Below are positions 7,468 to 27,031 of a DNA stretch of 45,247 nucleotides, one piece after another. The stretch comes from Myxococcota bacterium (GTDB taxonomy: Bacteria > Myxococcota_A > UBA9042 > DTJE01): the NCBI GenBank assembly GCA_017994695.1, contig JAGOKF010000024.1, forward strand, positions 1 to 45,247. Direction: 5' to 3'. Made by a program: the position numbers and the translations under genes. Each line of letters starts with the position of its first letter. Position 1 is the stretch's first letter. Under the pieces are notes generated by a model. It was not told where the DNA came from, did not search any database, and saw only the letters and a program-made list of their open reading frames with translations.

Positions 7468-8655
7468 CTACCGGGGACCGGGCCTGTCCGACCGGGACCG
7501 GCCCCGGACCCGGCAACCGATCCGCAGCAGGGCCAGGAGGATCCAGGCCGGGGGCCTCCCGTTGGCACCCTGGGCGCAGGCCCCGGCGGCCCTGGATCCG
7601 GAGCGGGTCTCCGGCGGGGATTCCCCGGAGGCATTGGGACCCGACCCGTCGTCCGGGTCCTCGATCGGCCGGGCGTCGAGGTCCCGTTCCGCCGGGCCGA
7701 TCCCGTCCACCGTCCCGTCCTCGGCCCCGGGCGGCGCCGGTTCCCGGACGTCCTGGACCGCCGGCAGTTCCTCGGGCATCCCTGCGTCCCGGACCTCCTC
7801 CCCTCCCGGATCGTCGGCGGCGTCGGGAGGCGACCCCTCCTCGGGGACTTCGGGCGGAGGCCGGCAGGCCTCGGGCAGGCACTCCCAGCCCGGGCCGTCG
7901 TCGTTGAGCCCGGTCCCTTCCAGCAGGGCCTCCCGGGTCCGGTCCCAGCACTCGTCGCAGAGGAAGATGCCCCCGTGCTCCACCCACGGCGTGTCCAGTT
8001 CGATGTTCCGGGCCCCCTGCAACTGTGACCCCGACGGGGGCACGATGATCTCGTCGTACTCGCTCCAGAGGCAGGTGTACCGGACGTCCCCGGGGGTCTC
8101 GTCGCAGGCGTTCAACGCTGCCAGGAACTCGTTGTTGCGCCAGGCTTCGTCCCGGCTCCCGATGCACATGTGCTTCGCCCCGCACGAGAACGGGTCCAGG
8201 CAGGCCACGGCCGTGCCGTGCATCGCCCCGGCCAGCGTGACCACCCGGCGCACCCGCCGGGCCCCGCAGAGGTCCGACTTCATCCAGGACAGCAGGTTCA
8301 GGCACCCCATGCTGTGGCAGACCACGTCCACCCGGTCGAACCCCGTCGCCGAGGTCAGTTCCCGGACCCAGCCCTCGATCTCCCCCACGTGCTCGTCGTT
8401 GCACCCCCGGACGTCCCGGAAGGAGGGGGTCCGGAGGTACTCCTCGGGCCACCCGTCCTGGCTGGCCCGCTTGAAGAAGTTGGCCCAGGTGGCATCCCCG
8501 GCTTGCGAAATGACGAAGTAGCCGTGGATGAACAGGATCGGGGTCCGGTCGTAGTCCCACTGGCCGGCCCGGACGGCCCCCGCCGGCATCAGGACCGCCA
8601 GCACCGCCGCGGGAATCCAAGCCGGAAGGCCCCTGGCCGAGGAGGCCGGCCTCAT
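7468..8655 (-). CDS. Secreted lipase-like alpha/beta hydrolase with MYXO-CTERM-like tail
   Basis: 395 aa. A signal peptide (ending AGAVRAGQ) is followed by an alpha/beta-hydrolase fold of the triacylglycerol-lipase/PGAP1 type. It shows the oxyanion-loop motif PILFIHGYF, the nucleophile elbow CHSMGC with Ser115, and several Cys that could form disulfides. A likely catalytic His lies in VEHGGIF. After about residue 265 comes a long Pro/Asp/Glu-rich linker. The end reads GACAQGANGRPPAWILLALL and then an Arg-rich tail, which matches the plan of MYXO-CTERM sorting signals: Cys, short hydrophobic helix, basic end. The protein is therefore probably processed and held at the cell surface. Its ATG overlaps the stop of the upstream repeat lipoprotein (ATGA at 8652-8655), so the two are translationally coupled. 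The substrate is unknown; esterase and amidase roles are alternatives. Confidence 0.85.
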   Translation of the reverse strand: MRPASSARGLPAWIPAAVLAVLMPAGAVRAGQWDYDRTPILFIHGYFVISQAGDATWANFFKRASQDGWPEEYLRTPSFRDVRGCNDEHVGEIEGWVRELTSATGFDRVDVVCHSMGCLNLLSWMKSDLCGARRVRRVVTLAGAMHGTAVACLDPFSCGAKHMCIGSRDEAWRNNEFLAALNACDETPGDVRYTCLWSEYDEIIVPPSGSQLQGARNIELDTPWVEHGGIFLCDECWDRTREALLEGTGLNDDGPGWECLPEACRPPPEVPEEGSPPDAADDPGGEEVRDAGMPEELPAVQDVREPAPPGAEDGTVDGIGPAERDLDARPIEDPDDGSGPNASGESPPETRSGSRAAGACAQGANGRPPAWILLALLRIGCRVRGRSRSDRPGPR

Positions 8656-11600: not shown

Positions 11601-12506
11601 GATGCAGTACGCCAGCCCCTCGCAGGTCCCGTAGGCGTTGGTCAGGGGGCAGGGCTTCGGTGCCACGTTGTCGTCCACCCGCCCGTTGCAGTCGTCGTCC
11701 TCCAGGTTGCAGGTCTCGGCGGCCGGGGTCTTCGCGCGGCAGGGCTCGGCGCAGCTGCGCTTGCCGGTGCACCGCCCGAACTCGTTCTCGTTGTAGCAGG
11801 TGGTGAGGTACTCCCTCTGCTCGTACTTCGGGGTGCAGGGGCACTGGCCGTCCCTGGGCCGGCACTGCTTCACGTCCCCGGTGGGGGTCGCCACCGGGAC
11901 GCAGACGAAGTTCTCGGGGCAGTCGGCGTTCTTGTCGCACTGGGCCCCGCAGAACTTCCCCTCGGGACCGGACTCGATGCACAGGAACTTCTTGTTCGCG
12001 GCGCCGGTCTTCGGCAGGCAGTCCTCGTTGGTGTCGCACGGGCGGCAGAGGTTCGGGAAGGGATAGATGCACCCGTAGATCTTCTCCCCGCCGACGGTCA
12101 CCTCGTCGCATGTCCACCCCTGGGGGCAGTCGATCCCCAGGCCGCACTGCTTCGTGCAGATGTTCTGGTCCATCGTCTCGATGCAGATGCCCGAGTAGCA
12201 GTCGCTGGCGTAGTTGCAGGGGCACAGGAAGTTGCCGGGGCATTCGGGCGGCACGTCCACCGATGCGTCGGCGTCTCCGGGGAGATCCGCGGGCAGTTCG
12301 GTCCCCGGGTCTTCGGGGCCTCCGGGGTCGCGGGTCTCCCCCTGGCCGGGATCCCCGGCGGGATCCGGCGCCCCGGGATCCTGGGGCAGGAGGGTGTCCC
12401 GGCCGGTGTCCGGAATGCCGGTGTCCTCGGTCCCGACCCCGCCGCCGCCGCAGCCTCCCGCCAACCCGACCGCCACCGCCAGCACCGCCGTCCACCGCCT
12501 GCTCAT
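8652..12506 (-). CDS. Giant MopE/TSP3 repeat surface lipoprotein
   Basis: 1284 aa. The start follows AGGAGG with a 5-base gap. The lipobox is AVGLAGGC, then a Pro/Asp-rich linker and a Cys-rich region (about 95-260). MopE-type metal-binding motifs (pattern C-N-x-x-D-D-x-C-x-G) occur twice near 265-330 and five times near 730-1030, for example ERCNGIDDNCNG. Between them (about 330-725) are TSP3-like units, eight with DNC followed by a PN.Q-type turn, joined by GDACDCDIDGDGV. The last 200 residues (SCATAIDIGTLAD...DSDVDWYKV...) look like a PPC-type beta domain. The MopE of Methylococcus is a surface copper protein and TSP3 repeats bind Ca2+. Metal-dependent rigidity and surface location are inferred. 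It is the first gene of an operon with the lipase and has a strong promoter. Confidence 0.9.
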   Translation of the reverse strand: MSRRWTAVLAVAVGLAGGCGGGGVGTEDTGIPDTGRDTLLPQDPGAPDPAGDPGQGETRDPGGPEDPGTELPADLPGDADASVDVPPECPGNFLCPCNYASDCYSGICIETMDQNICTKQCGLGIDCPQGWTCDEVTVGGEKIYGCIYPFPNLCRPCDTNEDCLPKTGAANKKFLCIESGPEGKFCGAQCDKNADCPENFVCVPVATPTGDVKQCRPRDGQCPCTPKYEQREYLTTCYNENEFGRCTGKRSCAEPCRAKTPAAETCNLEDDDCNGRVDDNVAPKPCPLTNAYGTCEGLAYCINGLQNQCQGAYPAPEVCNGLDDNCEGTTDEGFPDMDRDGLADCVDPDVDGDGVPNAQDNCPLVANPSQSNNDAGEEGSTKVGDACDDDDDNDGIPDASDNCPTVKNVSQADADLDGKGDACDCDADDDGFPNTANLDMLGQKCPDPGASRDNCPLVPNPLQEDTNRNGVGDACDCDIDGDGVANNNPGCPVIDRPDNCRFVPNPDQGDLDLDGTGDACDCDIDNDQVGNNNPGCPVLTVEDNCPTVANPDQRNTDALLPGGDNLGDACDCDIDADGVANDGPVCPPANPKDNCPTVPNPDQANTTGGEYGDACNFDWDGDGVRNEEDNCPRQPNPDQSDVDLDGDGDACDCDADGDGLGNDGFRADGTQCPVPDPKDNCLRIANPLQEDLDRDGIGDACDCDIDGDGDPQPNFDCPTPIPEDCDPYNPDISHLARERCNGIDDNCNGDIDDQDALGCQNFFYDFDNDGYGIDQSRCLCAAAGYFRALVSGDCSDNDNTINPGVQEICNNSRDDNCNGSENDLNASGCTRYYKDQDGDGFGTAEFECRCFPVGSIYTTRFTGDCDDADPQVNPNRTEICFNGKDDNCNGSQNDENAANCQRFYWDADGDGWGTSQFKCICYAEENWRAGDKPRVDCDDGDAQVYPERTEVCNNGKDDNCDGFQDTENASGCVTYFYDNDGDGYGVTGNEKCLCASTGKYTARDGGDCQDANANISPGVAEKCNGIDDNCDTRIDENPDTLCTALPNASSTCQTAQCVIKTCNAGFYNVNGVVGDGCECQQDASDNTGNSCATAIDIGTLADDGTATVRYGRVVPDSDVDWYKVRATDSADGGTLASPGRDRFNVVARLLSPTDGSLMVDIRKGSCGVAQTCGGVTWQWTVAGRWGTVGENPCVTPPTAKGGLWTCCLPGECPAETQSPPSDPCCAGDSVGAGGGSGVPCTDGTKNVRFCSDNQDTFYIRVYRATGSATQCSQTDYALEVSNGR
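10330..11520 (-). repeat. In-gene tandem TSP3-like coding repeats
   Basis: Degenerate coding repeats of roughly 110-150 bp inside the MopE/TSP3 lipoprotein. Each encodes an Asp/Asn-rich calcium loop, then DNCP-like and GDACDCD-like segments. On the + strand the recurrent string is gtcgcagtcgcaggcgtc, seen near 10390, 10550, 10790, 10940 and 11080. Linkers vary in length, so it is a protein repeat rather than a recent DNA duplication, but the identical short runs could recombine. Confidence 0.8.
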
Positions 12507-12697: not shown

Positions 12698-13402
12698 TTG
12701 CTCCGCATCGACGTCCAGGAATACCTGCCACTGGTCCGGCGGGTGGCGCTGCGGATGGCCGCCCGCCTGCCCCGGGGCACGGACCTCGACGACCTGATCG
12801 GGGCCGGGGTGCTGGGCCTCCTCAGCGCCTCCCGACAGTACGCCCCCGAGAAGGGGGTTCCCTTCCACTGCTATGCCGAGATCCGGATCCGCGGGGCCAT
12901 CCTGGACGAGCTCCGGGCCCAGGCCCCCTCCTCCCGGACCGCCCGTCGCCAGTCCGGCGAGATCGCCGAGACCGTCCTTGGCCTGTCCTCCCGCCTGGGA
13001 CGGGCTCCGACCCCCGAGGAGGTCGCCTCCGAACTGGGGATCAGCCCGGAACGCTACCGGGAACTGCTGGACCGGGTCGCGCCGGTGGTCGTGATCGGGT
13101 TCGACGACCTCCACGGCCCGTCGGACGACGACCCCCGGGACCCCCTCCAGGGGATCCGGGATCCCGACGGCGCCGACCCCGCCGCCGCAACCGCCGACCG
13201 GGAACGGACGCTGCGCCTGGCGACGGCCATCGAGAACCTCACCGAGCGGCAGCGGCAGGTGATCAAGTTCTACTACCTCGAAGGGCTGAACACCAGGGAA
13301 ATCGCCGAGATGCTCGGGGTGACCGAGGGCCGGGTCTCCCAGCTCCACGGATCCGCCCTGGTCCGACTGAAAGGACTCTTGCAGGAAACCTTTCAGGTCT
13401 GA
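12698..13402 (+). CDS. FliA/WhiG-type RNA polymerase sigma factor
   Basis: 234 aa from a TTG start. GGAGGG lies seven bases before it. An in-frame ATG at 12677 would sit inside the probable -10 box and has only GGCGGG upstream, so I prefer TTG, though ATG is possible. The order is region 2 (YLPLVRRVALRMAARLP, DLDDLIGAGVLGLL, FHCYAEIRIRGAILDELR), region 3 (RAPTPEEVASELGIS) and region 4 (LTERQRQVIKFYYLEGLNTREIAEMLGVTEGRVSQLH). This is the sigma28 plan. Family members direct flagellar, sporulation or stress genes in partnership with an anti-sigma. No flagellar gene or FlgM is visible here. The next gene, a GH5 lipoprotein, starts 67 bp downstream, so this sigma may drive the glycan locus, which is inference. 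Confidence 0.9.
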   Translation: MLRIDVQEYLPLVRRVALRMAARLPRGTDLDDLIGAGVLGLLSASRQYAPEKGVPFHCYAEIRIRGAILDELRAQAPSSRTARRQSGEIAETVLGLSSRLGRAPTPEEVASELGISPERYRELLDRVAPVVVIGFDDLHGPSDDDPRDPLQGIRDPDGADPAAATADRERTLRLATAIENLTERQRQVIKFYYLEGLNTREIAEMLGVTEGRVSQLHGSALVRLKGLLQETFQV

Positions 13403-13469
13403 TATGCAGCGTCTTCCGGAAGTCGGAAGGCCCGACCCGGGGTTCCGGGTATTCACTCAGGGGTCTCCC

Positions 13470-16340
13470 ATGAAGAATTCATCCCTACGCTGGTGGCTCG
13501 TGATCGGCCTGTGTCTCGCCGGATGCGCGGGGGACCCCCGGAACGGCCCGCTGCCCCTCTCCCGGCCGACGCTGGACCGGAACTACCTGCTGGACGCCAA
13601 CGGCCGCTACCTGTCGTTCCACGGGGTCAACGTGTCGGGCAGCAGCAAGGTCCCCTACTGGATCCGCCTCCCGGGGAAGGACTGGCGGCCGATGACCACC
13701 GAGGACCTCGGCCTGCCGCCCCAGTCCTACGACGTCTCCTTCGTGGGGCGCCCCTTCGCCCTGGACCCGGGGTGGAAGCCCGGGGACGGCGTCGAGGCGA
13801 TGGCCGACAAGTTCGGAAACGCCCGGACCCAGATCCGCCGGCTCCGGGATGCCGGGTTCGACTCCTTCCGCCTGCTGCTGATCTGGGAGGCCATCGAGCC
13901 GAACCGCCGGGGGGACTACGACCGGGAGTTCCTGGCCTACTACCGGAAGATCGTGGAAATCTGCAACGAGGAGGGCATCCAGGTCCTGGTGGACATGCAC
14001 CACGACATGGTGAGCCGCCTGCTGTCGTCCCGCTACTCGGACCGGCCCTCCTACCGCACCGCCGACGGGCGCACGGTGATCGCCGAGCCCGAGAGCCTGG
14101 AGGGCATCGTGCTGGCCCTGTTCCCGCCCTACACGGACACGGTCCGGGGGGACGGGATGCCGAAGTGGTCCGTCCAGGCGGCGCTGCCCGAAAAAGATCT
14201 GCGGCCCGAGAATCCCTACTGGGGCATCCCCCGGATCGTGAGCCAGTTCACCCCTGCGCTGCTCTGCAAGGCCTGGGGCGTCTATTCCTGGGCCACCGGC
14301 GAGGAGCCGGACGCCCTGATCGACTTCGCGTGCAGCACCCTGGACCCTGCGAGCCCGAACTACGACCCCATCGACGGCCGGTCCTCGGTCTGCCAGGCGG
14401 TGGAGACCGTGTCCGACGAGGATCTGCCTCCCTGGCTGAAGCACATCGCCCGGTTCGCCTGCAACGAGGAGTTCCCCGTCGGGCAGCCGGGAACGGACCT
14501 GGCCTTCGGGCCGGAGAAGTCCTCGGACATGCTGCCATTCTCCCAGTGGAGCATCGGCAGCATCACGAGCCTCGACGCCGAGCGGACGAACGCGGCCTTC
14601 TTCGGGTCCGAGCCGGCCTTCCCGGGGCTCTACGCCCGGGAGTGCCGCGACGGCCGGTTCAACCCCAACGACCTCTACGGCTGCCCCCCCGACAAGATCG
14701 TCTACCCCACGCACCGGGTCTGCCGGGACCCCGAGCGGTCCACCTGGCAGGTCGAGGGCTGCAAGGACGTCCGGGAGGAGTTCTATTCCCTGCGGGACTA
14801 CCTCCAGGAGGCCTTCGTGGGGGCCTGGATCGAGGTCGTCCGGTCGGTGAAGGACCTTCCCAACGTGATCGGCTACGACCTGCTGAACGAGCCCGTCGGC
14901 TACAACATCATGCTGGCCATCCAGACCCTGGTGCAGATGGGCGGCGTGGACCAGGCGGCCATCGGCAACCTGGTGCGGAACCTGGTGGCCGACCCCGCCG
15001 TGGCCGAGCGGATCGAGCGCCTGGTGCCGGCCCTGGGACTGATCCCCGACCTGCCGCCCCTCCCCCCCGAGCCCGTCGCCCCGGTGCCGCCCGTGGCCCC
15101 GGAGGACCCGGGTCCCGGGGCCGATCCCGAGCGGCAGCAGCGCTACCAGGTCGAAAAGGCCCTCTACCAGCGGGACCTGGAGGCCTACCAGAAGCAGAAG
15201 GCCGACTACGATGCCCGGATGGCGGCCTACCCGGCCGAGAAGGCCGACGCCGAGGCCCGCCGCAAGGCGGTCCTGAAGGCCTGGGGCCTGGTCTGGGAGG
15301 GACCCACCTCGCCGGAGCCGGCCCTGGCCGAGCGGGACGGGAACGGGGCCTGGAAGATGGCCGAGTACCAGCCGGACCTCCTCGCGGTGGTGGAACTGAA
15401 CACGTCCTTCGACTGGTCCTTCCTGCGACCGATGTACCATCGCCTGGGCAACGCGATCCTGAAGGAGGACCCCGAGGCCCTGCTGTTCCTGGAGGGCTCG
15501 ATGGGCATCGGCAGCGTGGGCTACGACCTGGGGATGCCGACCCCCGACGGCCTCGAGGGGCACGTGGTCTTCGCACCGCACCACTACGAGGACATCTTCC
15601 CGTTCCTGGGATTCAACATGAACCCCCGGTTCTTCCAGGTGGAGGAGGTGGCCTTCCGGGACTACACGGCCGGAATGGTCGCGGCGGCCCAGCTCGCCAC
15701 GGAGTCCCTGGGCAACGCCCCGGTGGTCTTCGGGGAGTTCGGGTCCTACTTCAACTTCAACGGCCTGGAGCAGTCCATCGCCGACGACTACGTGATCACC
15801 AAGCACATCCTGGACAACTACTACGAGGGCTTCGAGTCGCTGTTCGCCAGCCGGATGGTGTGGTGCTGGACCGAGACCAACGACCCCCGGTTCGGCGACC
15901 TCTGGAACAAGGAGGACTTCAGCATTCTGGGCTTCGACGGCAACTTCCGGGGCCAGGAGGTCTGGGCCCGGCCCCACGCCCGGGCCCTGGCGGGCAAGCC
16001 CCTCCGCACCCGTTTCTACAGCCCGCTCCACTACTTCGACCGGGACAAGGGCATCCCGAACCCCGTCGGGGAGTTCGAGGTGGCCTACCAGTCCAAGGAG
16101 ACCACCGCGCCCACCGAAATCCAGATCCCCTATGACATCCAGTACCCCCAGGGGTTCTTCGTCTGGGCCTCCGACGGGTCGGTCTGGTACGACCACGACC
16201 GGAGGATGCTGTACCACCTGCCGGAGCGGGACGAGCCCGGCGCCGAGCACTGGGTGCGCATCCGGCCCCCCATCGAGGGGGCCCCGGCGGTGGGCTGGCG
16301 CTACTTCTTCCGGGAACACCAGGTGATCGAGGGGGATTGA
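13470..16340 (+). CDS. Endoglycoceramidase-like GH5 lipoprotein (first copy)
   Basis: 956 aa. Lipobox VIGLCLAGC. The catalytic region begins with LDANGRYLSFHGVNVSGSSK, characteristic of endoglycoceramidase-related GH5. The proposed acid/base is Glu474 in GYDLLNEPVG and the nucleophile Glu756 in VFGEFGSYFNF. The 282-residue gap is far larger than in typical family members. It holds a Pro-rich stretch (about 525-550), then a charged helical segment that may coil (about 553-607, with QRDLEAYQKQKADYDA). A C-terminal beta domain (from about 850) ends ...REHQVIEGD. Family enzymes cut the glycan from ceramide or hydrolyse related beta-glycosides. Lipidation and the adjacent porin suggest outer-membrane display. 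The ribosome site is weak (CAGGGG). It shares fold and order with the gene at 17921. The substrate is not decided by sequence. Confidence 0.85.
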   Translation: MKNSSLRWWLVIGLCLAGCAGDPRNGPLPLSRPTLDRNYLLDANGRYLSFHGVNVSGSSKVPYWIRLPGKDWRPMTTEDLGLPPQSYDVSFVGRPFALDPGWKPGDGVEAMADKFGNARTQIRRLRDAGFDSFRLLLIWEAIEPNRRGDYDREFLAYYRKIVEICNEEGIQVLVDMHHDMVSRLLSSRYSDRPSYRTADGRTVIAEPESLEGIVLALFPPYTDTVRGDGMPKWSVQAALPEKDLRPENPYWGIPRIVSQFTPALLCKAWGVYSWATGEEPDALIDFACSTLDPASPNYDPIDGRSSVCQAVETVSDEDLPPWLKHIARFACNEEFPVGQPGTDLAFGPEKSSDMLPFSQWSIGSITSLDAERTNAAFFGSEPAFPGLYARECRDGRFNPNDLYGCPPDKIVYPTHRVCRDPERSTWQVEGCKDVREEFYSLRDYLQEAFVGAWIEVVRSVKDLPNVIGYDLLNEPVGYNIMLAIQTLVQMGGVDQAAIGNLVRNLVADPAVAERIERLVPALGLIPDLPPLPPEPVAPVPPVAPEDPGPGADPERQQRYQVEKALYQRDLEAYQKQKADYDARMAAYPAEKADAEARRKAVLKAWGLVWEGPTSPEPALAERDGNGAWKMAEYQPDLLAVVELNTSFDWSFLRPMYHRLGNAILKEDPEALLFLEGSMGIGSVGYDLGMPTPDGLEGHVVFAPHHYEDIFPFLGFNMNPRFFQVEEVAFRDYTAGMVAAAQLATESLGNAPVVFGEFGSYFNFNGLEQSIADDYVITKHILDNYYEGFESLFASRMVWCWTETNDPRFGDLWNKEDFSILGFDGNFRGQEVWARPHARALAGKPLRTRFYSPLHYFDRDKGIPNPVGEFEVAYQSKETTAPTEIQIPYDIQYPQGFFVWASDGSVWYDHDRRMLYHLPERDEPGAEHWVRIRPPIEGAPAVGWRYFFREHQVIEGD

Positions 16341-16386
16341 CGGCCGTCCCGGGGAGGGCGCGGTCGAGTCACAAGGAGGGCATCGC

Positions 16387-17895
16387 ATGGCAACAAGGCA
16401 CGCTGGACGCGGGTTCCTGGTCGTCCTGATGGTCGGCACCGGGCTGGCCTCGATCCCGGGAGCGGTCCGGGCCGACGAGTCGGCGGATCGGATCCAGGCG
16501 TTGGAGGATTCGGTGCGGGCCCTCCAGCAGGAGGTCACGGCGCTGAAGGAGGCCCGCCCCTCCGGGGATCAGACCCCGGCCGCCGGGCGGGGGGTGGACG
16601 GGTCGCCGCTGCACAAGCCGGCCTTCGAGGCCCACATGCAGCTCCACAACCTGCTGATCTTCCGGAACGACACCGACTTCGACCGCCGGAAGCCCCTCTA
16701 CAACGAGAACGGCCAGACCAGCGGCGCCTTCGCGACGGTCTTCGGCCCGACGCTGACCTGGAACCTCACGGACGACATCCGGGTGTTCTACGAGGCCGAG
16801 GTGGGGCTGAACTACTGGTCGAAGAACAACCCCGACCAGGAGAACGCCCTGGGGGCGGACATCTTCGTTCTGAAGCACCGGCAGATCTACGCCGAGGGAA
16901 GCCTGGCCGACGGCCGGTTCGGCTTCAAGGTCGGCTACCAGTACACGACCGACTCCACGGCCCTGTTCCTCGGTCACTGGATCGGCGCCGCCCAGGTCTG
17001 GTGGGCCCCGAAGAAAGGGTGCCGCTGGTCGCTCCGGGCCGGCATGATCCCCGACCTGACCTACGAGGGCCTGTCGATCGTCGAGAACAACTTCCGGCAC
17101 GACATCTTCACCTTCGGGCTGGGCTGGGACCGGCAGTACAACGACCACTGGTCCTGGAAGTTCGCTGTGGACAGCCTCTACGACACCCACGTGGTCGGCC
17201 GGCCCCGGTGGCTCGTGGTCCCGAACCTCCATCTCGAGGGGCGGACCGGCTGGATGCGGGACGGGTCGGTCCGGGTCAGCGGCTTCGTGGACGCGGTGGT
17301 CCAGGGCGGCCGCAGCGAGAACAGCGCCCTGGACGGCGGGGACCAGACCCTGCTGGCCTGGGCGGCCCAGGGCAACCTGAAGGTCGAGACCCGCCCCCTG
17401 ACCCTCGCCCTGAACGCCCTGGCCCTCTCGCCCGACGACGACTGGCAGGGCAACGGCCGGGAGGGGTCCTTCTTCTACAGCAGCAAGTCCCAGAGCGCGA
17501 CGCTCTACTTCACCGAGGACGAGGTGCGGAACTGGTACGACCAGCTGGACCGCCGCATGGGCCGCTACGAGGGCGGGTTCTGGCAGCACCGGGCCGGGCT
17601 CTTCCTGACGGACCTGAAGGCCACGCTGACCGTGGTGCCCTGGTTCCGCCCCAGCGTGATCCTGGGGTACGGCATCGTGCTGAACCCCCAGAACGCCCTG
17701 GGCGAGCGCCAGGTCGGCTTCGAGGGCAACCTGGACCTGGCCTTCCAGTGGACCCGGCATTTGGTGGCCCGGGTGCTGGTGGGCGGCATGGCCCCCGGCA
17801 AGGCCGCCGCGGCCCTGATGAACCAGATCGCCCCCCAGGACAAGGTGACCGACGGGCTCTGGTGGACCGAGGCCGCCCTGTCCCTGGTGTTCTGA
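16387..17895 (+). CDS. Outer-membrane beta-barrel porin with N-terminal coiled coil
   Basis: 502 aa. Signal peptide ending AVRADE, then a short coiled coil (RIQALEDSVRALQQEVTALK, about 37-57). The rest has alternating polar/aromatic strands (GFKVGYQYTTDSTALF; WSWKFAVDSLYDTHV) and ends in Phe (ALSLVF), the usual mark of an outer-membrane barrel. The coiled coil resembles trimer stalks of carbohydrate porins. It has AAGGAGGG eight bases before the ATG. It sits between two GH5 lipoproteins, so a role in taking up the released oligosaccharide is likely. I see no TonB box or plug domain, so this is a diffusion or selective porin rather than a SusC-type receptor. The specific family is not recognised. 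Confidence 0.8.
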   Translation: MATRHAGRGFLVVLMVGTGLASIPGAVRADESADRIQALEDSVRALQQEVTALKEARPSGDQTPAAGRGVDGSPLHKPAFEAHMQLHNLLIFRNDTDFDRRKPLYNENGQTSGAFATVFGPTLTWNLTDDIRVFYEAEVGLNYWSKNNPDQENALGADIFVLKHRQIYAEGSLADGRFGFKVGYQYTTDSTALFLGHWIGAAQVWWAPKKGCRWSLRAGMIPDLTYEGLSIVENNFRHDIFTFGLGWDRQYNDHWSWKFAVDSLYDTHVVGRPRWLVVPNLHLEGRTGWMRDGSVRVSGFVDAVVQGGRSENSALDGGDQTLLAWAAQGNLKVETRPLTLALNALALSPDDDWQGNGREGSFFYSSKSQSATLYFTEDEVRNWYDQLDRRMGRYEGGFWQHRAGLFLTDLKATLTVVPWFRPSVILGYGIVLNPQNALGERQVGFEGNLDLAFQWTRHLVARVLVGGMAPGKAAAALMNQIAPQDKVTDGLWWTEAALSLVF

Positions 17896-17920
17896 GGAAC
17901 CGCGAGCCAAGGAGGGAACG

Positions 17921-20503
17921 ATGCATGCATTTCGTCGCGCGTGGATCCTTCCGGCGCTGCTGATCCTCGTGCCCGGCTGCGCCGGGGAGGAGCCGTCCCT
18001 TCCGGCCCCTCCCTCGGGGAGGGTGCGGACGCACCTGACCTGGCTGAAGGACTCCGAGGGTCGCTACCTGTACCTTCACGGCGTGAACCTGTCGGGCAGC
18101 ACGAAGGTCCCCAAGGCGGTGGACGGCCGGGTCCTGACACCCCTGGACCTCCGGGAGGCCTTCAACCGGGGCGTGCCCTCCTACACGGGCAAGCCCTGGG
18201 ACCTCCAAGGGTGCCGGTTCCAGGCCGACGGGCGCTACGATCCTTCCTCCGAGGCGACCTGCCAGGCCGCCCAGGAGATCCGGAAACTGCGCCGGGTGGG
18301 GTTCAACGTCTTCCGGTTCCTGCTGAACTGGGAAGGCGTGGAGCCGACGGCCCCCGGGCGGTACGACGAGGTCTACCTGGACAGCATCGCGAAGCACGTC
18401 CAGGTGGCCAGGCACTACGGGGTCTACCTGCTGCTGGACATGCACCAGGACTCCTTCAGCCGCCACCTGGTGGTGCGCTACAACGAGAAGCCCTCCTACA
18501 AGGACGACCAGGGCCGCACGGTGTACCCGCCCCGGGGGAGCCTCGAGAACATGGTCCTCTCCCTGGTCGAGCCGTACACCGACGCGGTCCGGGGGGAGGG
18601 CGCCCCCCGGTGGGCCGTCGAGGCCTGCCTCTACGAGAAGAACCTGGACGCCGACACCTGGGGCGTGCCCCGGCTGATCTCCGGCGTCAGCGAGGCCAAC
18701 CTGTCGTCGATCATCGACCTGCTGAAGAAGGTGATGCCCGGCACCGGGGACGGCGGAGGTCCGGCGGTGCCGCCGTGGATCAACGAACTGCTGGCCCGGA
18801 TCCCCGTTCCGGCCATCCCGGTCACCGACACCTCCGACCTGCTGCCCTTCACGAACTGGGGCCTGATGTCGATGACCTCCATCGACACGGCCCGCTGCTT
18901 CGCGTGCCTGCTGTCGGGGTACTTCGGCGACGACGACCCGTACAAGCGGGGCGGGGCCTTCAAGGGCCTCACGAAGGACGGCGTGCCCATCAGCCGCTGG
19001 ATGCAGCAGGCCTACGGGAAGATGTGGCGCCGGGTCGTGAAGGCCCTGAAGGACCAGAACGGCGGCACGGTGCCCGAGAACGTGATCGGCTACGACATCA
19101 TCAACGAGCCCAACGGGAACTTCATCACGATGACCGCCGCCGCGGCCATCTTCAACACCGGCTTCTACCAGTCCGCGAAGAGCACGCTGGTGGAACTGCT
19201 GGGCAAGGACACGGGAGAGCAGGTCTTCGACCTGCTGACCGCCCTCCGGCTGCTGCCGGTGGTGCCCGAGAAGCCCGGGGACGGGGCGTCCCAGGCCGAG
19301 AAGGACGCCTGGCAGGCCGAGATCGACCGCCTGGCCCGGGACTGGGGCTTCCAGTATGCCGACTTCCTGGGCATCGCGGGCCTCAATGTCGGGTATGACC
19401 GGAACTTCATGACGCCCTTCTACGAGGTCGTCGGCCGGGAGATCTTCGAGGAGGACCCCGAGGCGGTGATCTGGTTCGAGCCAGCCATGAGCATCTCGAT
19501 GGTCCTCGGAGGCGTCACCCAGGGCATGTGGGACATGGGGATGCTGAAGCCCCGGATCTGCCGCTGCGAGGACGAGACCTCCGCCCTGAACGGCAAGGCC
19601 GTCTCCTGCGACGTCGAGGCGGCGCGGTGCGGGAAGGTCCGGGAGGCAGACACCGTCTATGCCCCCCACTACTACGCCGACATCTACCCGTTCCTGGGGT
19701 TCAACTATCCCTCCCGGGACTTCTCCCCCGAGGAGATCCGCCACCGGGACTACGACGACGGCATCGCCGGGGTCTTCCAGGTCGTGGACTGGAACCTGGA
19801 AAAGATCCCGGCGGTGCTGGGAGAGTTCGGGACCTACTACAACTTCGGGGGGATCGAGAAGTCCCACTCGATGGACTACCTGGTGTCCTCTCACATCCTG
19901 GACAACTACTACGAGAGCCTGGAGCGCATGGGGATGCACCGGATCCTCTGGTGCTACACCCCCGACAACGACCCCCGGTACGGGGACTGGTGGAACAAGG
20001 AGGACTTCAGCATCTGGCGCGGCTGGAAGGACCTCGTGATCGACCGGGACATCGGCCTGGCCGAGCCGACGGTGACCACCACCGACCGGGCCCTGGCCGA
20101 GGGGGCCTTCCGGGCCCAGAGGGCCTGGTCGCGGCCCTACCCGAAGGCCCTGGCGGGAAAGCTCCTGTCCCTGCACTTCTACAGTCCCTACCACTACTTC
20201 GACCCGGACAAGGGGGAGGTGCCGCCGGAGCGGGAGTTCGAGGTGATCTACGCGGCGAAGGAGACCCCGGCGCCGACGCAGATCTTCGTGCCGGAGGTCC
20301 AGTACCCCGACGGCTTCTACGTCTGGCTGTCGGACGGCTACGCCTACTGGGACGAGGAGACCCGCACGCTGCTCCATTTCCCGACCAACGACGACCCCGG
20401 GGCCCGACACTTCGTCCGGATCCTGCCCCCCCTGGAGGGCCGCCCGGCCACCGGCTGGAACTACTTCATCCGGGGCAAGGACATCGTCGCGAAGGGACCG
20501 TGA
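17921..20503 (+). CDS. Endoglycoceramidase-like GH5 lipoprotein (second copy)
   Basis: 860 aa, with lipobox LLILVPGC and AAGGAGG before the ATG. It opens with LKDSEGRYLYLHGVNLSGSTK, clearly paralogous to the 13470 gene. Acid/base is proposed as Glu396 in GYDIINEPNGN, nucleophile as Glu635 in VLGEFGTYYNFGG. LLLDMHQDSFSR matches the conserved GH5 strand with substrate-contacting His. The linker between catalytic Glu residues (239 aa) lacks the Pro-rich/helical insert of copy one but has a Cys-containing loop (RICRCEDETSA). The C-terminal beta domain is shared with copy one. The pair has diverged widely, so the two may act on different linkages or lipids. The alternative is a non-lipid beta-glycanase. 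Confidence 0.87.
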   Translation: MHAFRRAWILPALLILVPGCAGEEPSLPAPPSGRVRTHLTWLKDSEGRYLYLHGVNLSGSTKVPKAVDGRVLTPLDLREAFNRGVPSYTGKPWDLQGCRFQADGRYDPSSEATCQAAQEIRKLRRVGFNVFRFLLNWEGVEPTAPGRYDEVYLDSIAKHVQVARHYGVYLLLDMHQDSFSRHLVVRYNEKPSYKDDQGRTVYPPRGSLENMVLSLVEPYTDAVRGEGAPRWAVEACLYEKNLDADTWGVPRLISGVSEANLSSIIDLLKKVMPGTGDGGGPAVPPWINELLARIPVPAIPVTDTSDLLPFTNWGLMSMTSIDTARCFACLLSGYFGDDDPYKRGGAFKGLTKDGVPISRWMQQAYGKMWRRVVKALKDQNGGTVPENVIGYDIINEPNGNFITMTAAAAIFNTGFYQSAKSTLVELLGKDTGEQVFDLLTALRLLPVVPEKPGDGASQAEKDAWQAEIDRLARDWGFQYADFLGIAGLNVGYDRNFMTPFYEVVGREIFEEDPEAVIWFEPAMSISMVLGGVTQGMWDMGMLKPRICRCEDETSALNGKAVSCDVEAARCGKVREADTVYAPHYYADIYPFLGFNYPSRDFSPEEIRHRDYDDGIAGVFQVVDWNLEKIPAVLGEFGTYYNFGGIEKSHSMDYLVSSHILDNYYESLERMGMHRILWCYTPDNDPRYGDWWNKEDFSIWRGWKDLVIDRDIGLAEPTVTTTDRALAEGAFRAQRAWSRPYPKALAGKLLSLHFYSPYHYFDPDKGEVPPEREFEVIYAAKETPAPTQIFVPEVQYPDGFYVWLSDGYAYWDEETRTLLHFPTNDDPGARHFVRILPPLEGRPATGWNYFIRGKDIVAKGP

Positions 20504-20548
20504 CCGGCCCGGGGCCCTCGGCCCGGGCCTCCCATCGAGGAGGGACGG

Positions 20549-22240
20549 ATGGAGACGACACAGCGGCTCGTGGAACTGGGGTTCCTGGACTGGGCGATCG
20601 TGGCACTCTACTTCGTCGCGATCATCGGCATCGGCCTCTACCTGAAGGCCTTCACGAAGACCGGCGACGACTTCTTCCTGGCCGGCCGCCGGAACTCCTC
20701 CTGGGTGGCCGGGCTGGCCTTCCTGTCGGCCAACCTGGGCGCCCTGGAGATCCTCGGCTGGACCGGCGGCACGATGAAGTATGGGATGTTCGTCTCCCAC
20801 TTCTACTGGGTGGGGGCCATCCCGGCGATGCTGTTCCTGGGCCTCTACATGATGCCCTTCTACTACTCGTCGAAGATCCACAGCGTGCCGGGGTACCTGA
20901 AACTGCGCTTCGACGAGAGGACGCGGCTGCTGAACGCCTTCGCCTTCGCGATCATGACGCTGCTGATGAGCGGCATCAACCTGTACCTGATGGCCCTGGT
21001 GTTCAACGTGCTGCTGGGGTGGGACTGGCACGTGAGCATGTGGGTCTCGGCCGCCGCCATCGGCTGCTACATCACCCTGGGAGGCCTCCTCAGCGCGATC
21101 TTCACGGAGATCGTGCAGTTCTTCCTGATCTGGGCGGGCCTGTTCCTGGTGTCGATCCTGGGGCTGGTGGAGATCGGGGGGCCCACCCACCTGATGGACC
21201 AGTTGCCGGCCACGATGACCTCCCTGTGGGCGACCACCGGCGATCCCTCCCGGAACGCGATGGGGGTCACCTGGCTCGGCCTGGCCATGGGCCTGGGGTT
21301 CGTCCTGTCCTTCGGCTACTGGACCACGGACTTCCTGGTGGTGCAGCGGGCCTTCAGCAGCCGGGACCTCCGGTCGGCCCGCCTGACGCCCATCACGGCC
21401 TCCTTCTTCAAGATGGCCCTGCCCTTCATCGTCGTGGTGGCGGGCCTGGTGGCCTACAAGCTGGGCATGGACCCCTCCAGCGGCTTCCGTCTCCCGGAGG
21501 ACCCCCAGAACCCCGGCAAGGTCTGGAACGACGCCGCGCTGCCGCTGCTGATCGCCCGGTACTACCCCACCGGGCTGGTGGGCCTGGGGATCACCGCCCT
21601 GCTGGCGGGCTTCATGGCGGGCCAGGCGGGCAACGTCAGCGCCTTCAACACCGTCTGGACCTACGACATCTACCGGGTGATCTTCCGCCCGAAGGCCTCC
21701 GACGAGCACCTGGTCTGGGTCGGCCGGGTCACCACGGTGGTCGGCATCCTGCTGTCGGTGGCCACCGCCTACGTCGCGATGCAGTTCAACACCATCATGG
21801 ACTACATCCAGGCCATCTTCTCCTGGGTCAACGCCCCCCTCTTCGCGACGATGCTGCTGGGGATGTTCTGGAAGCGCACCACCTCCGCCGGGGCCTTCTG
21901 GGGGCTGCTGGCGGGGATGCTGGTCTCCTTCGCCATCTTCCTGGGCTTCCGCTTCGGGTGGATTTCCGGGGACCTGGCCCGGCTGCTGACCTTCGCGGAC
22001 AACCCCTCGGACATGAGCCGCAACCTCTGGCAGGCCTCCTGGGCCTGGGTGGTCTGCTTCGTGGTGACCATCGGGATCTCCCTGGTGACGCCGCCGAAGC
22101 CCGACTCGGAACTGGTGGGGCTCGTGAAGGGACTGACCCCGGCGGCGGACGACGGCAAGGTGGCCTGGTGGGGCCGGCCGGCCGTCTGGGCGGCCCTGTC
22201 CCTGGCGGTGCTGATCGCCCTGAACGCCTGGTTCTGGTAG
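20549..22240 (+). CDS. Na+/sugar symporter, SSS family (SGLT-like)
   Basis: 563 aa, about 14 hydrophobic segments. The SSS signature appears early (GDDFFLAGRRNSSWVAG), followed by GYLKLRF and the GFMAGQAGNVSAFNT loop typical of SGLT-type sugar carriers. These inner-membrane transporters import sugars with Na+. RBS GAGGAGGGACGG. The position between the GH5/porin genes and galactokinase argues for a galactose or galactoside substrate. Substrate identity is inferred from context; related SSS carriers move myo-inositol, sialic acid or proline. Confidence 0.9.
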   Translation: METTQRLVELGFLDWAIVALYFVAIIGIGLYLKAFTKTGDDFFLAGRRNSSWVAGLAFLSANLGALEILGWTGGTMKYGMFVSHFYWVGAIPAMLFLGLYMMPFYYSSKIHSVPGYLKLRFDERTRLLNAFAFAIMTLLMSGINLYLMALVFNVLLGWDWHVSMWVSAAAIGCYITLGGLLSAIFTEIVQFFLIWAGLFLVSILGLVEIGGPTHLMDQLPATMTSLWATTGDPSRNAMGVTWLGLAMGLGFVLSFGYWTTDFLVVQRAFSSRDLRSARLTPITASFFKMALPFIVVVAGLVAYKLGMDPSSGFRLPEDPQNPGKVWNDAALPLLIARYYPTGLVGLGITALLAGFMAGQAGNVSAFNTVWTYDIYRVIFRPKASDEHLVWVGRVTTVVGILLSVATAYVAMQFNTIMDYIQAIFSWVNAPLFATMLLGMFWKRTTSAGAFWGLLAGMLVSFAIFLGFRFGWISGDLARLLTFADNPSDMSRNLWQASWAWVVCFVVTIGISLVTPPKPDSELVGLVKGLTPAADDGKVAWWGRPAVWAALSLAVLIALNAWFW

Positions 22241-22274
22241 GAGCCCGGGCCTGACTTCCCGGGGGAGGCTTGCC

Positions 22275-22484
22275 ATGTCGGAACAGCGGGAACCGTTGCC
22301 CATCTGGTTCTTCGTCGGCGTGATCCTGGCCGTGTACGGGGTCCTGGTGATCCTGGGGGACGTCACGAACCTCCGGGAGATCCGGCTGGCCCATCTCCGC
22401 CCGGGTCTCTGGTGGGGTGGCGGGATGCTGGTCTTCGGGGCGGTCTTCACCGCCCTGGGCCTCTGGTCCCACCGCCAGGGCTGA
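22275..22484 (+). CDS. Small two-helix membrane protein beside the symporter
   Basis: 69 aa, with GGGGGAGG upstream of the ATG. Two hydrophobic spans (IWFFVGVILAVYGVLVILGD and LWWGGGMLVFGAVFTALGLW) are joined by a short loop (LREIRLAHLRPG). Small proteins of this design are often encoded next to SSS transporters. A regulatory or assembly subunit of the symporter is a reasonable guess but unproven. Confidence 0.75.
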   Translation: MSEQREPLPIWFFVGVILAVYGVLVILGDVTNLREIRLAHLRPGLWWGGGMLVFGAVFTALGLWSHRQG

Positions 22485-22559
22485 AGGCCAGCGACCCCTC
22501 CCCGGGCGCCCGGACGGGTCGCCTCGATCGCGGAACGGGCGCCCGACAGGGAGGATTCC

Positions 22560-22973
22560 ATGCGCAAGGTCTCGACCCGACCCCCCTCCTTTCCCGATGC
22601 CCCGAAGGACGTGCCCCTGGTCCCGGTGGGTCCCGAACGCTGGCAGGTCCTCTGCGGCGACCCCGGCCACTGGCGGGTGGGGATCTATTCCCCCCCCGAG
22701 GACCGACCCGAGGCCTGCCGGAAACTGGAGTGGCACGACTGCCCCGAGTTCTTCCTGCTGATGTCCGGCCGGGTCACGCTGGTCCTCTCCGACGGCGCGG
22801 GAGGTCTCCGGGAGGTGTCCCTGGCACCCGGCAGGCCGGTCCTGGTCACGGTCCCCCACTCGGCCTACTGCCCCGACGGGCCCCACGGGGGGACCTGCCT
22901 CGTGGTCGAGCGGGACTCCTTCGACACGGAGTACCGGGCCGTCGAGGACTGGAAGGCCCCCTTCCCTTCCTGA
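22560..22973 (+). CDS. Cupin-like small protein
   Basis: 137 aa. Conserved order of a single cupin barrel: KLEWHDCPEFFLLMSGRVTLVL, then LAPGRPVLVTVPHSAYCPDGPHGG. The first motif has only one His plus Glu, so metal binding is uncertain. RBS GGGAGG six bases before the ATG. Placed between the symporter and galactokinase, it might bind or isomerise the imported sugar (for example as a mutarotase-like or ketohexose isomerase-type cupin) or act as a sensor. The role is unknown. Confidence 0.75.
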   Translation: MRKVSTRPPSFPDAPKDVPLVPVGPERWQVLCGDPGHWRVGIYSPPEDRPEACRKLEWHDCPEFFLLMSGRVTLVLSDGAGGLREVSLAPGRPVLVTVPHSAYCPDGPHGGTCLVVERDSFDTEYRAVEDWKAPFPS

Positions 22974-22983
22974 GGAGGACGCG

Positions 22984-24159
22984 ATGGAGTGGTGGCAGCG
23001 GGCACGGCAGGGGTTCCGGGAGGCCTTCGGGGCGGACCCCGCGTTCGTCGCCGATGCGGGCGGCCGGGTCAACCTGATCGGGGAGCACACGGACTACCAC
23101 GAGGGCTTCGTGTTCCCGGCGGCCATCGACCTCCGGACGCTGGCGGCCGGGTCCCCCCGGACCGACGGCCGGATCCGGATCCGTTCCGGCAACGTGGAGG
23201 AACTGAGGGAATCCCTGGTGGAGACGCTGGCCCCTCCCGGGGGGTTCCCCCCGTGGTGGGCCTATGCCGAGGGCCCCCTCTGGGCCCTCCGGGAAGAGGG
23301 CCTGCCGATCCCCGGCGCCGACCTGTGGGTCCGGGGAGAGGTCCCCCTGGGAGGCGGCCTCTCCTCCTCGGCCTCGATCCAGGTGGCCCTGGCGGCCCTC
23401 GGCGCCGCCCTGGCGGGACGATCCCTGCCAGCGATGGAGGTCGCACGCCTGGCCCGCCGGTCCGAGAACCTCTACTGCGGGGTGCCCTGCGGGGCGATGG
23501 ACCAGGTGGCCTCGGCCTGCGGGGTCGCCGGTCACGCCCTGCTGCTGGACTGCCGGACGCTGTCCTTCGACGCGGTCCCGTTCCCCGGGGACTGGGCCCT
23601 GGTGGTGGCCGACTCGGGGGTGCGGCACTCCGTCGCCGGGTCCGAGTACGCCCGCCGGCAGCAGGAGTGCGCCCGGGGCATGGCCGTGGCCCGACAGGCC
23701 TTCCCGGACGTCCGGACCGCCCGGGACCTGGCGCCCGACCGCCTGGAGGCGATCCGGAACGACCTGGACCCGACCGCCTTCCGGCGACTGCGCCACGTGG
23801 TGACCGAAAACGACCGCTGCCTCCGGGCGGGGGACGCCCTGCGGCGGCACGACGGGCCCGCCCTCGGGTCGCTGCTGGCCGGGTCCCACGAGTCCCTGGC
23901 CCGGGACTACGAGGTCTCCTGTCCCGAACTGGACCTGCTGGTGGAAATCGGCTCGGGGCTCCCGGGTTGCATCGGGTCCCGCCTCACCGGGGCCGGCTTC
24001 GGGGGCAACACCGTGCACGTCGTCCAGGGCGACGCCGCCGGGGCCTTCCGGGAGGAACTGGGGCGCCGCTACCGGGACCGGACGGGCCGGGAGACCGCCA
24101 TGCGCATCGTCCACCCGGACCAGGGCGTGCGCTGCCTGCCGGTGTCCCCCGACGACTGA
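22984..24159 (+). CDS. galK: Galactokinase
   Basis: 391 aa GHMP kinase, usual length. The galactokinase signature GRVNLIGEHTDY is at 27-38, with Arg28. The ATP loop is PLGGGLSSSAS, the catalytic Asp is in CGAMDQ (Asp173), and motif 3 is TGAGFGGNTVHV. It phosphorylates alpha-D-galactose at C1. TGAGGAGG precedes the ATG by about 6 bases and the previous stop is 11 bp upstream. It sits directly ahead of a UDP-sugar pyrophosphorylase gene, giving galactose to galactose-1-phosphate to UDP-galactose. No galT or galE is seen in the window. GalNAc kinase is a possible alternative substrate within the family. Confidence 0.93.
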   Translation: MEWWQRARQGFREAFGADPAFVADAGGRVNLIGEHTDYHEGFVFPAAIDLRTLAAGSPRTDGRIRIRSGNVEELRESLVETLAPPGGFPPWWAYAEGPLWALREEGLPIPGADLWVRGEVPLGGGLSSSASIQVALAALGAALAGRSLPAMEVARLARRSENLYCGVPCGAMDQVASACGVAGHALLLDCRTLSFDAVPFPGDWALVVADSGVRHSVAGSEYARRQQECARGMAVARQAFPDVRTARDLAPDRLEAIRNDLDPTAFRRLRHVVTENDRCLRAGDALRRHDGPALGSLLAGSHESLARDYEVSCPELDLLVEIGSGLPGCIGSRLTGAGFGGNTVHVVQGDAAGAFREELGRRYRDRTGRETAMRIVHPDQGVRCLPVSPDD

Positions 24160-24166
24160 GGACGCC

Positions 24167-25954
24167 ATGAACCCGACGACCCTCCGTTCCCTGCTGCCCG
24201 CCTCCCTGACCGACCGGATCGACCGGGAGACCCTGGCCCGCCTGGAGGATCTCCACCGGGCCGGCTTCCTGGAGGACGCCCTCCGCCAGGTGCCGCTGGA
24301 GGCCCCCCCGGAGACCTGGGACACCCTGATCCGGGACCTGGCCGCCTGCGACCTGGACTGGATCGCGGGCCTGCGCGAGGCCCTGGACCGGCCCCCGGCC
24401 CCCCGGGACCCCGGGGACCTCCTGCCGGTCACGCCCCTGCGCCTGGACGACCCCCGGCGGGACTCCTGGATCGGCGCGGGAACGCGGGCGCTGGAGGAGG
24501 GGGCCGTCGCCTCCCTGATCTTCGCCGGCGGGGCGGCGACCCGCTTCTTCTCCGAGGCGGCCGGGGACCCCGAGGTGGAAGCCCTCCGGAGCCGGCTCGG
24601 AGCCGACCCGCCCAAGGGCCTCTACCCCCTCTTCCCGGTCCTCCGGCGGAACTTCCTGGAGGTCTTCCTGGCCGAGGCCCTGGAGGCGGGCCTGGCCGCC
24701 GGGCATCTGCCCCCGGTGGTCCTGATGACCTCCCGCCAGACCGACACGGCCATCCGCGCCTTCTTCCGGGACGGGTACCGGGAGTCCTTTCCGAAGGACC
24801 TCGTGCTGCCGATCCTCCAGCAGGAACACCCCCGCCTGGATGCCCGGGGCAGGCTGGTGGTGGCCCCCGGCGGGCGCCTGGTCCGCACCGGCGACGGTCA
24901 TGGCGGGGTCTTCCGGGCCCTCTGCCGGGCCGACGAAGGCCCCTCCCTCCGGGACCGGATCCGGGCGATGGGGGTCCGCACGCTGGTCATGCACAACGTG
25001 GACAACGCCCGGGCACGCCCCTTCGATCCCGCCCGCCTGGGGGTCCACGAGTCCTTCGCGTTCGCCTTCACGATGACCGTGGCCCCCCGGGCCCACGTCC
25101 GGGAGAAGGTCGGACTGGTGGCGATGGATGCCCGGACCGGCCGCATCGAGGTGATCGAGTACTCGGTCTGTCCCCCCGAGGTGGCCGACGCGAAGGACCC
25201 CGACGGCCGGCCGCGGTTCCGCTACGGCCACCTGAACACGAACCTGGTGGACCTCGATTCCATCCTCCCGGACCTGCCCCGGACCCTCTACACCGGCAAG
25301 AAGGTTCCGGTGGGGGACCGGCTGGTCGAGACCGCCTCCCACGAGATGCTGAACCAGCACCTGTCGGGGCTCCTGCCGGCGGACCGGGTCGGGGTGCTGG
25401 AGGTGCCCCGGGAGGAGTTCTTCCTGCCCACCAAGAGCCTCCGGGGGGAGGACAGCCTGGAACAGACGCGGGAGGCCCTGGCCCAGGGGCACCGGGAACG
25501 CCTCGAACACGCCGGCGCCCGGGTGGACCCGTCGGCCCGGGTGGAACTGCACCCCTGCCTGGCCGGGGGACCCTGGCCCCTCGGCGCGCTCCGGGACTGG
25601 GAGATCGGTCCGGGGAGCACCCTGGCGCTGGCCGTGATCCACGGTCCGTCGGGACCGCCGGGGGTCGGGAGGGGGTTCCTCCTGGGGGACGGGGCGACGC
25701 TGGTGGTGGACGCCGAGAGGCCCCGGGGTCCCGTCTCGGTGGACCCGGACACCCGCCGGGTCCGGGAGGACCGATCCCGGGCCGGGCGGTTCGCCCTCGG
25801 GAACGGCGTGGTCGTCCATCCCGGGGCGCGCATCCGGGTCCGGATCCTCGGGGACGGCTGCTTCGTGATCCCGGACGGGGCCCGCCTGGCCGGGGAGGCG
25901 GACCTGGTCGTCCCGCCGGGGGAGACGCGAACCTGGCCCGGGGGGTTAGAATAG
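24167..25954 (+). CDS. UDP-sugar (UTP-hexose-1-phosphate) pyrophosphorylase
   Basis: 595 aa, similar in size to plant-type UDP-sugar and UDP-N-acetylhexosamine pyrophosphorylases. The nucleotide loop is SLIFAGGAATRFF (about 117-129), a variant of the G-G-x-G-T-R motif in which the second Gly is Ala. The following KGLYPLFP supplies the catalytic Lys. A central Rossmann core follows, with GYGHLNTNLV-like text (FRYGHLNTNLVDLD), typical of the UDPGP family. The C-terminal beta region (about 430-595) may be a left-handed helix. The ATG is 8 bp after the galK stop (tgaggacgcc). The pathway role is conversion of galactose-1-phosphate with UTP to UDP-galactose (Isselbacher-type route). The exact sugar specificity is not resolved by sequence. 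Confidence 0.88.
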   Translation: MNPTTLRSLLPASLTDRIDRETLARLEDLHRAGFLEDALRQVPLEAPPETWDTLIRDLAACDLDWIAGLREALDRPPAPRDPGDLLPVTPLRLDDPRRDSWIGAGTRALEEGAVASLIFAGGAATRFFSEAAGDPEVEALRSRLGADPPKGLYPLFPVLRRNFLEVFLAEALEAGLAAGHLPPVVLMTSRQTDTAIRAFFRDGYRESFPKDLVLPILQQEHPRLDARGRLVVAPGGRLVRTGDGHGGVFRALCRADEGPSLRDRIRAMGVRTLVMHNVDNARARPFDPARLGVHESFAFAFTMTVAPRAHVREKVGLVAMDARTGRIEVIEYSVCPPEVADAKDPDGRPRFRYGHLNTNLVDLDSILPDLPRTLYTGKKVPVGDRLVETASHEMLNQHLSGLLPADRVGVLEVPREEFFLPTKSLRGEDSLEQTREALAQGHRERLEHAGARVDPSARVELHPCLAGGPWPLGALRDWEIGPGSTLALAVIHGPSGPPGVGRGFLLGDGATLVVDAERPRGPVSVDPDTRRVREDRSRAGRFALGNGVVVHPGARIRVRILGDGCFVIPDGARLAGEADLVVPPGETRTWPGGLE

Positions 25955-26572: not shown

Positions 26573-26583
26573 GGGAGGGGGAG

Positions 26584-27030: not shown

Positions 27031-27031
27031 G

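Follow-up and report, generated by a model that had tools for sequence, protein, structure and literature searches.

The window analysed here, a stretch of 45,247 nucleotides, comes from a 3.96 Mb draft genome, 96.7% complete, of the Myxococcota. Among named relatives it is closest to uncultured Myxococcales and 'Deltaproteobacteria' MAGs, of which several are apparently lake-derived by their isolate names; the lineage is represented here by environmental genomes alone. It encodes an array of nine plus-strand genes (Table 1) separated by gaps of 7 to 75 nucleotides, in which no plus-strand terminator-like site was found. The order, short gaps and ends of these genes agree with the first-pass annotation (12698-25954), as does the lack of SusC and SusD, no gene of the array matching such families in Pfam or NCBIfam. 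The delimitation of the locus by those coordinates holds for the nine genes but not for their surroundings, since the conserved neighbourhood reaches past both ends. Upstream it includes a divergent TSP3/MopE lipoprotein and a class-2 lipase (7471-12506, minus strand), the latter found in the same order at three other loci (L048, L050, L163). Downstream, an ECF sigma factor gene (25991) begins 36 nucleotides past the UDPGP gene and is followed by two small genes without assigned function (window 25991-27499); this order is kept in genomes G001 and G012.

Table 1. Features of the locus, with positions in the window
Feature	Position	Strand	Basis
Sigma factor, FliA/WhiG family (sigma-28 type)	12698..13402	+	TIGR02479, 217 bits
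GH5a lipoprotein	13470..16340	+	PF00150 and PF18564 (Glyco_hydro_5_C); inserted module
Outer-membrane beta-barrel (porin)	16387..17895	+	Model, Foldseek; N-terminal helix
GH5b lipoprotein, predicted beta-galactosyl-lipid hydrolase, core enzyme	17921..20503	+	PF00150 and PF18564
SSS-family transporter, SGLT-like, Na2 and sugar site atypical	20549..22240	+	PF00474
Two-TM protein, 69 aa	22275..22484	+	Two apparent TM stretches
Small cupin	22560..22973	+	Weak NCBIfam and PDB matches
Galactokinase (GalK)	22984..24159	+	TIGR00131, PF10509
UDPGP-family nucleotidylyltransferase, candidate UDP-galactose pyrophosphorylase	24167..25954	+	PF01704
Secreted lipoprotein, divergent, TSP3 and MopE metal-binding repeats	8655..12506	-	PF02412, PF11617; synteny
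Exported class-2 lipase / serine hydrolase	7471..8655	-	PF01674, 33.9 bits (cut-off 20.3)

A search for the same gene order in other genomes, proposed as a check in the first-pass annotation, found all or much of it in several other members of family f1, to which the window genome belongs; the arrangement is not fortuitous. The full order including GH5a is present in G001; the order sigma factor, barrel, GH5b, SSS transporter, two-TM protein, cupin, galK and UDPGP is intact in G012 and G008 and partial in G005 and G011, where a contig ends or galK is non-adjacent. Two more members of the family (G007, G006) and two genomes of another family (G029, G050) keep parts of it, and GH5, barrel, SSS transporter and two-TM protein stay together at two further loci (L075 and L076, the latter labelled Bdellovibrio). 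Among 284 Myxococcota genomes, searched with E values up to 1e-15 for the barrel and 1e-40 for GH5, the GH5 family occurs in 30 and the barrel in 29, every one of the latter also carrying GH5 (Fisher p 8e-39, inflated by the shared ancestry of the genomes). Of 38 barrel loci, 35 have an adjoining GH5 gene and two of the other three are cut by contig ends; the genomes being related, these events are not independent. Some GH5 paralogues stand without a barrel. An orthologue of the SSS transporter was found in 19 genomes of the sample searched, 18 of which also have GH5. Genome G003 (C45, L163:5176-10198) carries the SSS transporter, two-TM protein, cupin, galK and UDPGP without GH5 and barrel, near the same divergent TSP3/MopE lipoprotein and class-2 lipase as in the window; the locus thus consists of two modules that travel together but are separable. 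The first module is a near-obligate pair of a large GH5 lipoprotein and an outer-membrane barrel; the second serves galactose uptake and activation, here through the SSS transporter, two-TM protein, cupin, GalK and UDPGP. The nine-gene array is one form of this conserved two-module system.

The barrel protein has no match in Pfam or NCBIfam. Its AlphaFold2 model (pLDDT 70.7) has about 18 strands, and its best Foldseek matches are AlgE, OccD/OccK and chitoporin at only 9-13% identity, which indicates the kind of channel rather than its substrate. The earlier claim that the locus has its own outer-membrane channel is upheld by this model and by the near-obligate partnership with GH5.

GH5a is best started at the ATG at 13470 (alternative, 13404), which gives a lipoprotein signal with the lipobox LAGC; its nearest solved structure is SglA, and the catalytic glutamates of the NEP and GEFG motifs are present. 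Between the catalytic segments lies a proline-rich stretch followed by a helix-like repeat insertion (window about 15100-15400), which is weakly matched in the PDB by a designed PP-alpha miniprotein. GH5a is absent between the sigma factor and the barrel in four genomes (G005, G012, G008 and G011), and its orthologues, which form their own clade in the GH5 tree, are found elsewhere beside another barrel (L061, L063) or in tandem pairs (L058, L059). GH5a is an insertion into the locus, and the two GH5 genes are not one ancestral set. The view of the array as a single locus with two GH5 enzymes therefore stands for GH5b, which is core, and not for GH5a, whose occurrence in other neighbourhoods is in part what the first-pass annotation had named as speaking against it.

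The model of GH5b (pLDDT 80, pTM 0.86) retrieves sterylglucosidase chains at all of ranks 1 to 15 of a Foldseek search of the PDB (E about 1e-24), followed at ranks 16 to 31 by EGCase I and II (E about 1e-19), one more SglA chain and an endogalactoceramidase (1.6e-13); the first match past these 31, a GH5 endoglucanase (3e-7), is six orders of magnitude weaker. Profile searches give the same order (SglA, 159 bits; Sgl1, 133; EGCase II, 86). The conserved residues of clan GH-A GH5 enzymes, with the two catalytic glutamates (acid/base and nucleophile) among them, are invariant in all 17 sequences compared (N376, E377, H564, Y566, E616 and W658 in mature GH5b numbering). In Sgl1, the sugar is contacted by Lys47, His142, Asp144, Asn269, Glu270, Glu520, Trp570 and Glu587, and a capping Trp584 excludes more than one sugar (PMC8497620). 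Seven of these contacts (Lys47, His142, Asn269, Glu270, Glu520, Trp570 and Glu587) align with residues shared by all 17 GH5 members, Asp144 aligns with Asp in 15 of the 17, and the equivalent of Trp584, within a GDxWNxED motif, is invariant throughout; the mapping is by sequence alignment, and TM-scores of 0.5-0.6 denote likeness at the level of the fold, not of detailed geometry. The invariant cap tryptophan favours a monogalactosyl lipid over a complex glycosphingolipid. The window GH5 proteins score 48.6 and 61.7 bits against the EGCase I equivalog NF051847, for which the cut-off is 700 bits. GH5b is accordingly a predicted glycolipid-cleaving enzyme that, as judged from its sequence and model, appears sterylglucosidase-like in fold and cap motif. 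The first-pass description of the pair as endoglycoceramidase-like was right as to glycolipid-type GH5 lipoproteins and too specific otherwise, GH5b being nearest to fungal sterylglucosidases with the single-sugar cap tryptophan. The closest solved enzymes are glucosidases, and residue comparison alone does not indicate galactose.

The indication of galactose comes from the neighbouring genes. GalK scores 299 bits against TIGR00131 (cut-off 226.65) and contains the galactose-binding signature PF10509, and galK lies close to GH5 and barrel in several family f1 genomes. In a remote part of the GH5 tree, two genomes (G154, G189) carry GH5, barrel, galE, galT, galK and an SSS-family gene, all read in the same direction, and a third (G178) has GH5, barrel, galE, galT and galK, the GalE, GalT and GalK proteins all being identified by NCBIfam equivalogs. 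The series galT, galK, GH5, barrel is found in G032, and galT and galK face barrel and GH5 in G031. That galactose is the product is best supported by the finding of two unrelated routes for galactose 1-phosphate, UDPGP and galT, next to one and the same pair of GH5 and barrel, and the sugar released is very probably galactose; the proposal first made from galK and UDPGP in the window is thus strengthened by the galE-galT-galK clusters beside GH5 and barrel in other families. The nearest solved structures to UDPGP are UDP-GlcNAc/HexNAc pyrophosphorylases. Its gene stays with galK where GH5 and barrel are absent (L163), and a separate galT elsewhere in the window genome means that UDPGP is not strictly needed. 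The cupin, which weakly matches 3-hydroxyanthranilate dioxygenase-like cupins in NCBIfam and the PDB, is conserved in position between the two-TM protein and galK.

No other part of the locus is as conserved as the SSS transporter (78-83% identity in most of family f1), whose nearest solved relatives are vSGLT and human SGLT1. We compared it at the residues that we take to bind galactose and Na+ in vSGLT, among them Ser364 and Ser365 of the Na2 site. The two serines read Ala and Gly in all 14 aligned orthologues; at the sugar site, Q69 is changed to E, E88 to Y and N260 to S, S91 and N142 are also changed, and K294, Y263 and Q428 are kept. The sequence of 2xq2, presumably the K294A mutant of vSGLT, has Ala at position 294, where the window protein has Lys. 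Neither the Na2 serines nor the full set of galactose contacts of a vSGLT-type Na+/galactose symporter is thus present, and given these losses the transporter might carry something other than galactose; Na+-driven import of galactose, as first annotated, is unproven. The Na2 serines are retained in the SSS proteins of G189 and G031, which are encoded within or close to galT-type loci. A transporter 52% identical to that of the window lies in an unrelated neighbourhood in G113 (C25, L166:8068-9687) and keeps one Na2 serine; neither GH5 nor barrel was detected in that genome. The SSS query had no matches in a viral collection. In most loci the 69-residue two-TM protein, which has no Pfam match, directly follows the SSS gene, and it is conserved beside it in Myxococcota and in L076; it is likely to be a small accessory subunit of the transporter.

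The aglycone may be ceramide, diacylglycerol or sterol, in no order of preference. True neutral ceramidases (313-479 bits, cut-off 32.1) adjoin GH5 paralogues in G012 (in two places) and G011, and these paralogues have no barrel. In both genomes (G011:C128, L030:83-13302; G012:C31, L029) an operon-like block contains a neutral ceramidase, FadL, an SCP2-like protein, a class III aminotransferase, an FGGY kinase, a TetR regulator and the GH5 paralogue, with a class II aldolase in L030; from its gene content it reads as a putative sphingolipid-degradation operon. In the window genome, a lipoprotein of 1005 amino acids (G000:C96, L086:1456-4473, minus strand) has a weak ceramidase-like domain fused to a GH5 domain, the two parts of which are separate neighbouring genes in G012 (L059). 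The genome's own neutral-ceramidase matches were weak (26-47 bits) and were set aside as evidence for sphingolipids. As true ceramidases adjoin only paralogues in relatives, the glycosphingolipids of prey or host that were first suggested as a possible target are not supported as stated. The class-2 lipase and TSP3/MopE lipoprotein are kept beside the operon in relatives, even without GH5 and barrel (L163), and this pair would suit galactosyl-diacylglycerol. In a literature search of partial coverage, nothing matching was found on bacterial GH5 enzymes acting on galactolipids or on such loci in Myxococcota.

The sigma factor, which exceeds the TIGR02479 cut-off of 189.6 bits, is the sole FliA/WhiG protein above that cut-off in the window genome. 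Its TTG start at 12698 lies behind a GGAGG and a TTGGGG-N17-TATCAT box, and several relatives have a TTGACA-like box at that place. FlhA is absent from all 13 genomes of family f1, the window genome included, so the flagellar system that accompanies FliA proper is lacking. Exactly one FliA/WhiG gene is present in 11 of the 13, and in 8 of these 11 it stands at the GH5-barrel locus. Other genomes without FlhA also carry a FliA/WhiG sigma factor, so the linkage to GH5 and barrel could be mere synteny. Two loose matches to a sigma-28-type promoter motif were found near the locus, both at L066 and none in the window. WhiG has a precedent in actinobacteria for use outside flagellar control (PMC8325347).

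Taken with the models, these comparisons suggest that the array is probably a galactolipid-scavenging operon. GH5 lipoproteins anchored in the outer membrane would hydrolyse beta-linked galactose off a lipid of prey or detritus, whose aglycone might be that of a monogalactosyl ceramide, diacylglycerol or sterol; galactose would cross the outer membrane via the dedicated barrel encoded beside GH5b and the inner membrane via the SSS transporter and its two-TM partner, and would be phosphorylated by GalK, after which the UDPGP-family enzyme would convert it to UDP-galactose. The computations show which genes are present, their order and conservation, the intact catalytic residues of GH5, the fold class, the pairing of GH5 with barrel and the repeated link to galactose metabolism; that the enzymes are exposed at the surface, which lipid they cleave, which way transport runs, that the genes are co-transcribed and that the sigma factor controls them are what we infer in this scheme. 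The first-pass recognition of a non-Sus, glycolipid-type system is sustained by the lipoprotein GH5 enzymes and the locus's own channel; the insertion of GH5a and the near-obligate pairing of GH5 with barrel had gone unnoticed in it.

Release of oligosaccharides from complex glycosphingolipids by endoglycoceramidase-type GH5 enzymes, with galactose as the end product of further trimming, is unlikely: the EGCase I matches in NCBIfam (49-73 bits) are far under the equivalog cut-off, the cap tryptophan whose Sgl1 counterpart restricts the site to one sugar (PMC8497620) is invariant, and the window array holds no further exoglycosidase, even though EGCase I and II are the second-best fold matches of GH5b, ceramidases neighbour GH5 paralogues and GH84 lies near GH5a-type loci. 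That the best fold and profile matches are ergosteryl-glucosidases, and that the nearest solved relatives of UDPGP are HexNAc pyrophosphorylases, would instead suit hydrolysis of steryl or other glucosides, with GalK and UDPGP acting on another sugar or in the general provision of UDP-sugars; the recurrence of two non-homologous kinds of galactose genes (UDPGP, and galT with galE) with GH5 and barrel makes this improbable. Turnover of the bacterium's own galactolipids or outer-membrane glycolipids seems very improbable, since an outer-membrane lipoprotein, a dedicated barrel and genes of uptake and activation read as catabolic import and GH5 paralogues sit with ceramidase and FadL, although the core locus is highly conserved and lineage-specific control by the sigma factor is possible. 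As for galactolipid scavenging, it is doubtful that its most far-reaching form holds in every part, namely that the only FliA/WhiG sigma factor of a non-flagellate Myxococcota lineage runs a galactolipid-feeding operon with a new channel family tied to a surface enzyme that resembles sterylglucosidases, and with an SSS transporter that has a two-TM subunit and functions despite lacking the canonical Na2 serines.

The window GH5 enzymes share with SglA of Aspergillus and Sgl1 of Cryptococcus a two-domain fold, large insertions, the catalytic Glu pair, sugar contacts and the capping Trp; unlike these fungal proteins, to which they are about 16-18% identical in the fold match, they are exported bacterial lipoproteins, and the genes they are linked to serve galactose rather than glucose. 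Bacterial GH5_28 (EGCase I/II) and GH5_29 (Rhodococcus endogalactosylceramidase) are likewise glycolipid-cleaving GH5 enzymes with a C-terminal domain, and GH5_29 offers a precedent for cleavage of galactosyl-ceramide linkages (PMC3526467), but they have about 480 amino acids and open active sites, whereas the window enzymes have about 790-960 and the cap motif. Like the Sus-type loci of Bacteroidota, the locus clusters genes for a lipoprotein hydrolase, a channel through the outer membrane, and the uptake and activation of sugar; in contrast to their TonB-dependent channel, it has a porin-like barrel of the AlgE/Occ/chitoporin type and no SusC/SusD-like gene was seen in it, and the proposed substrate is a lipid-linked sugar rather than a polysaccharide. 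With a gal operon (Leloir pathway) and SGLT-type symporter it has GalK in common, and in distant relatives GalE, GalT and GalK, but the window operon has a UDPGP-family enzyme in place of GalT and an SSS transporter that belongs to a divergent clade and is paired with a two-TM protein. The locus makes the role of an orphan FliA/WhiG sigma factor in bacteria without flagella directly testable. If the galactolipid-scavenging reading is true, it would provide a source of bacterial enzymes for galactolipids, a glycolipid counterpart to Sus-type loci made up of a GH5 lipoprotein and a channel family without a Pfam model, and a concrete food source for uncultured lake Myxococcota.
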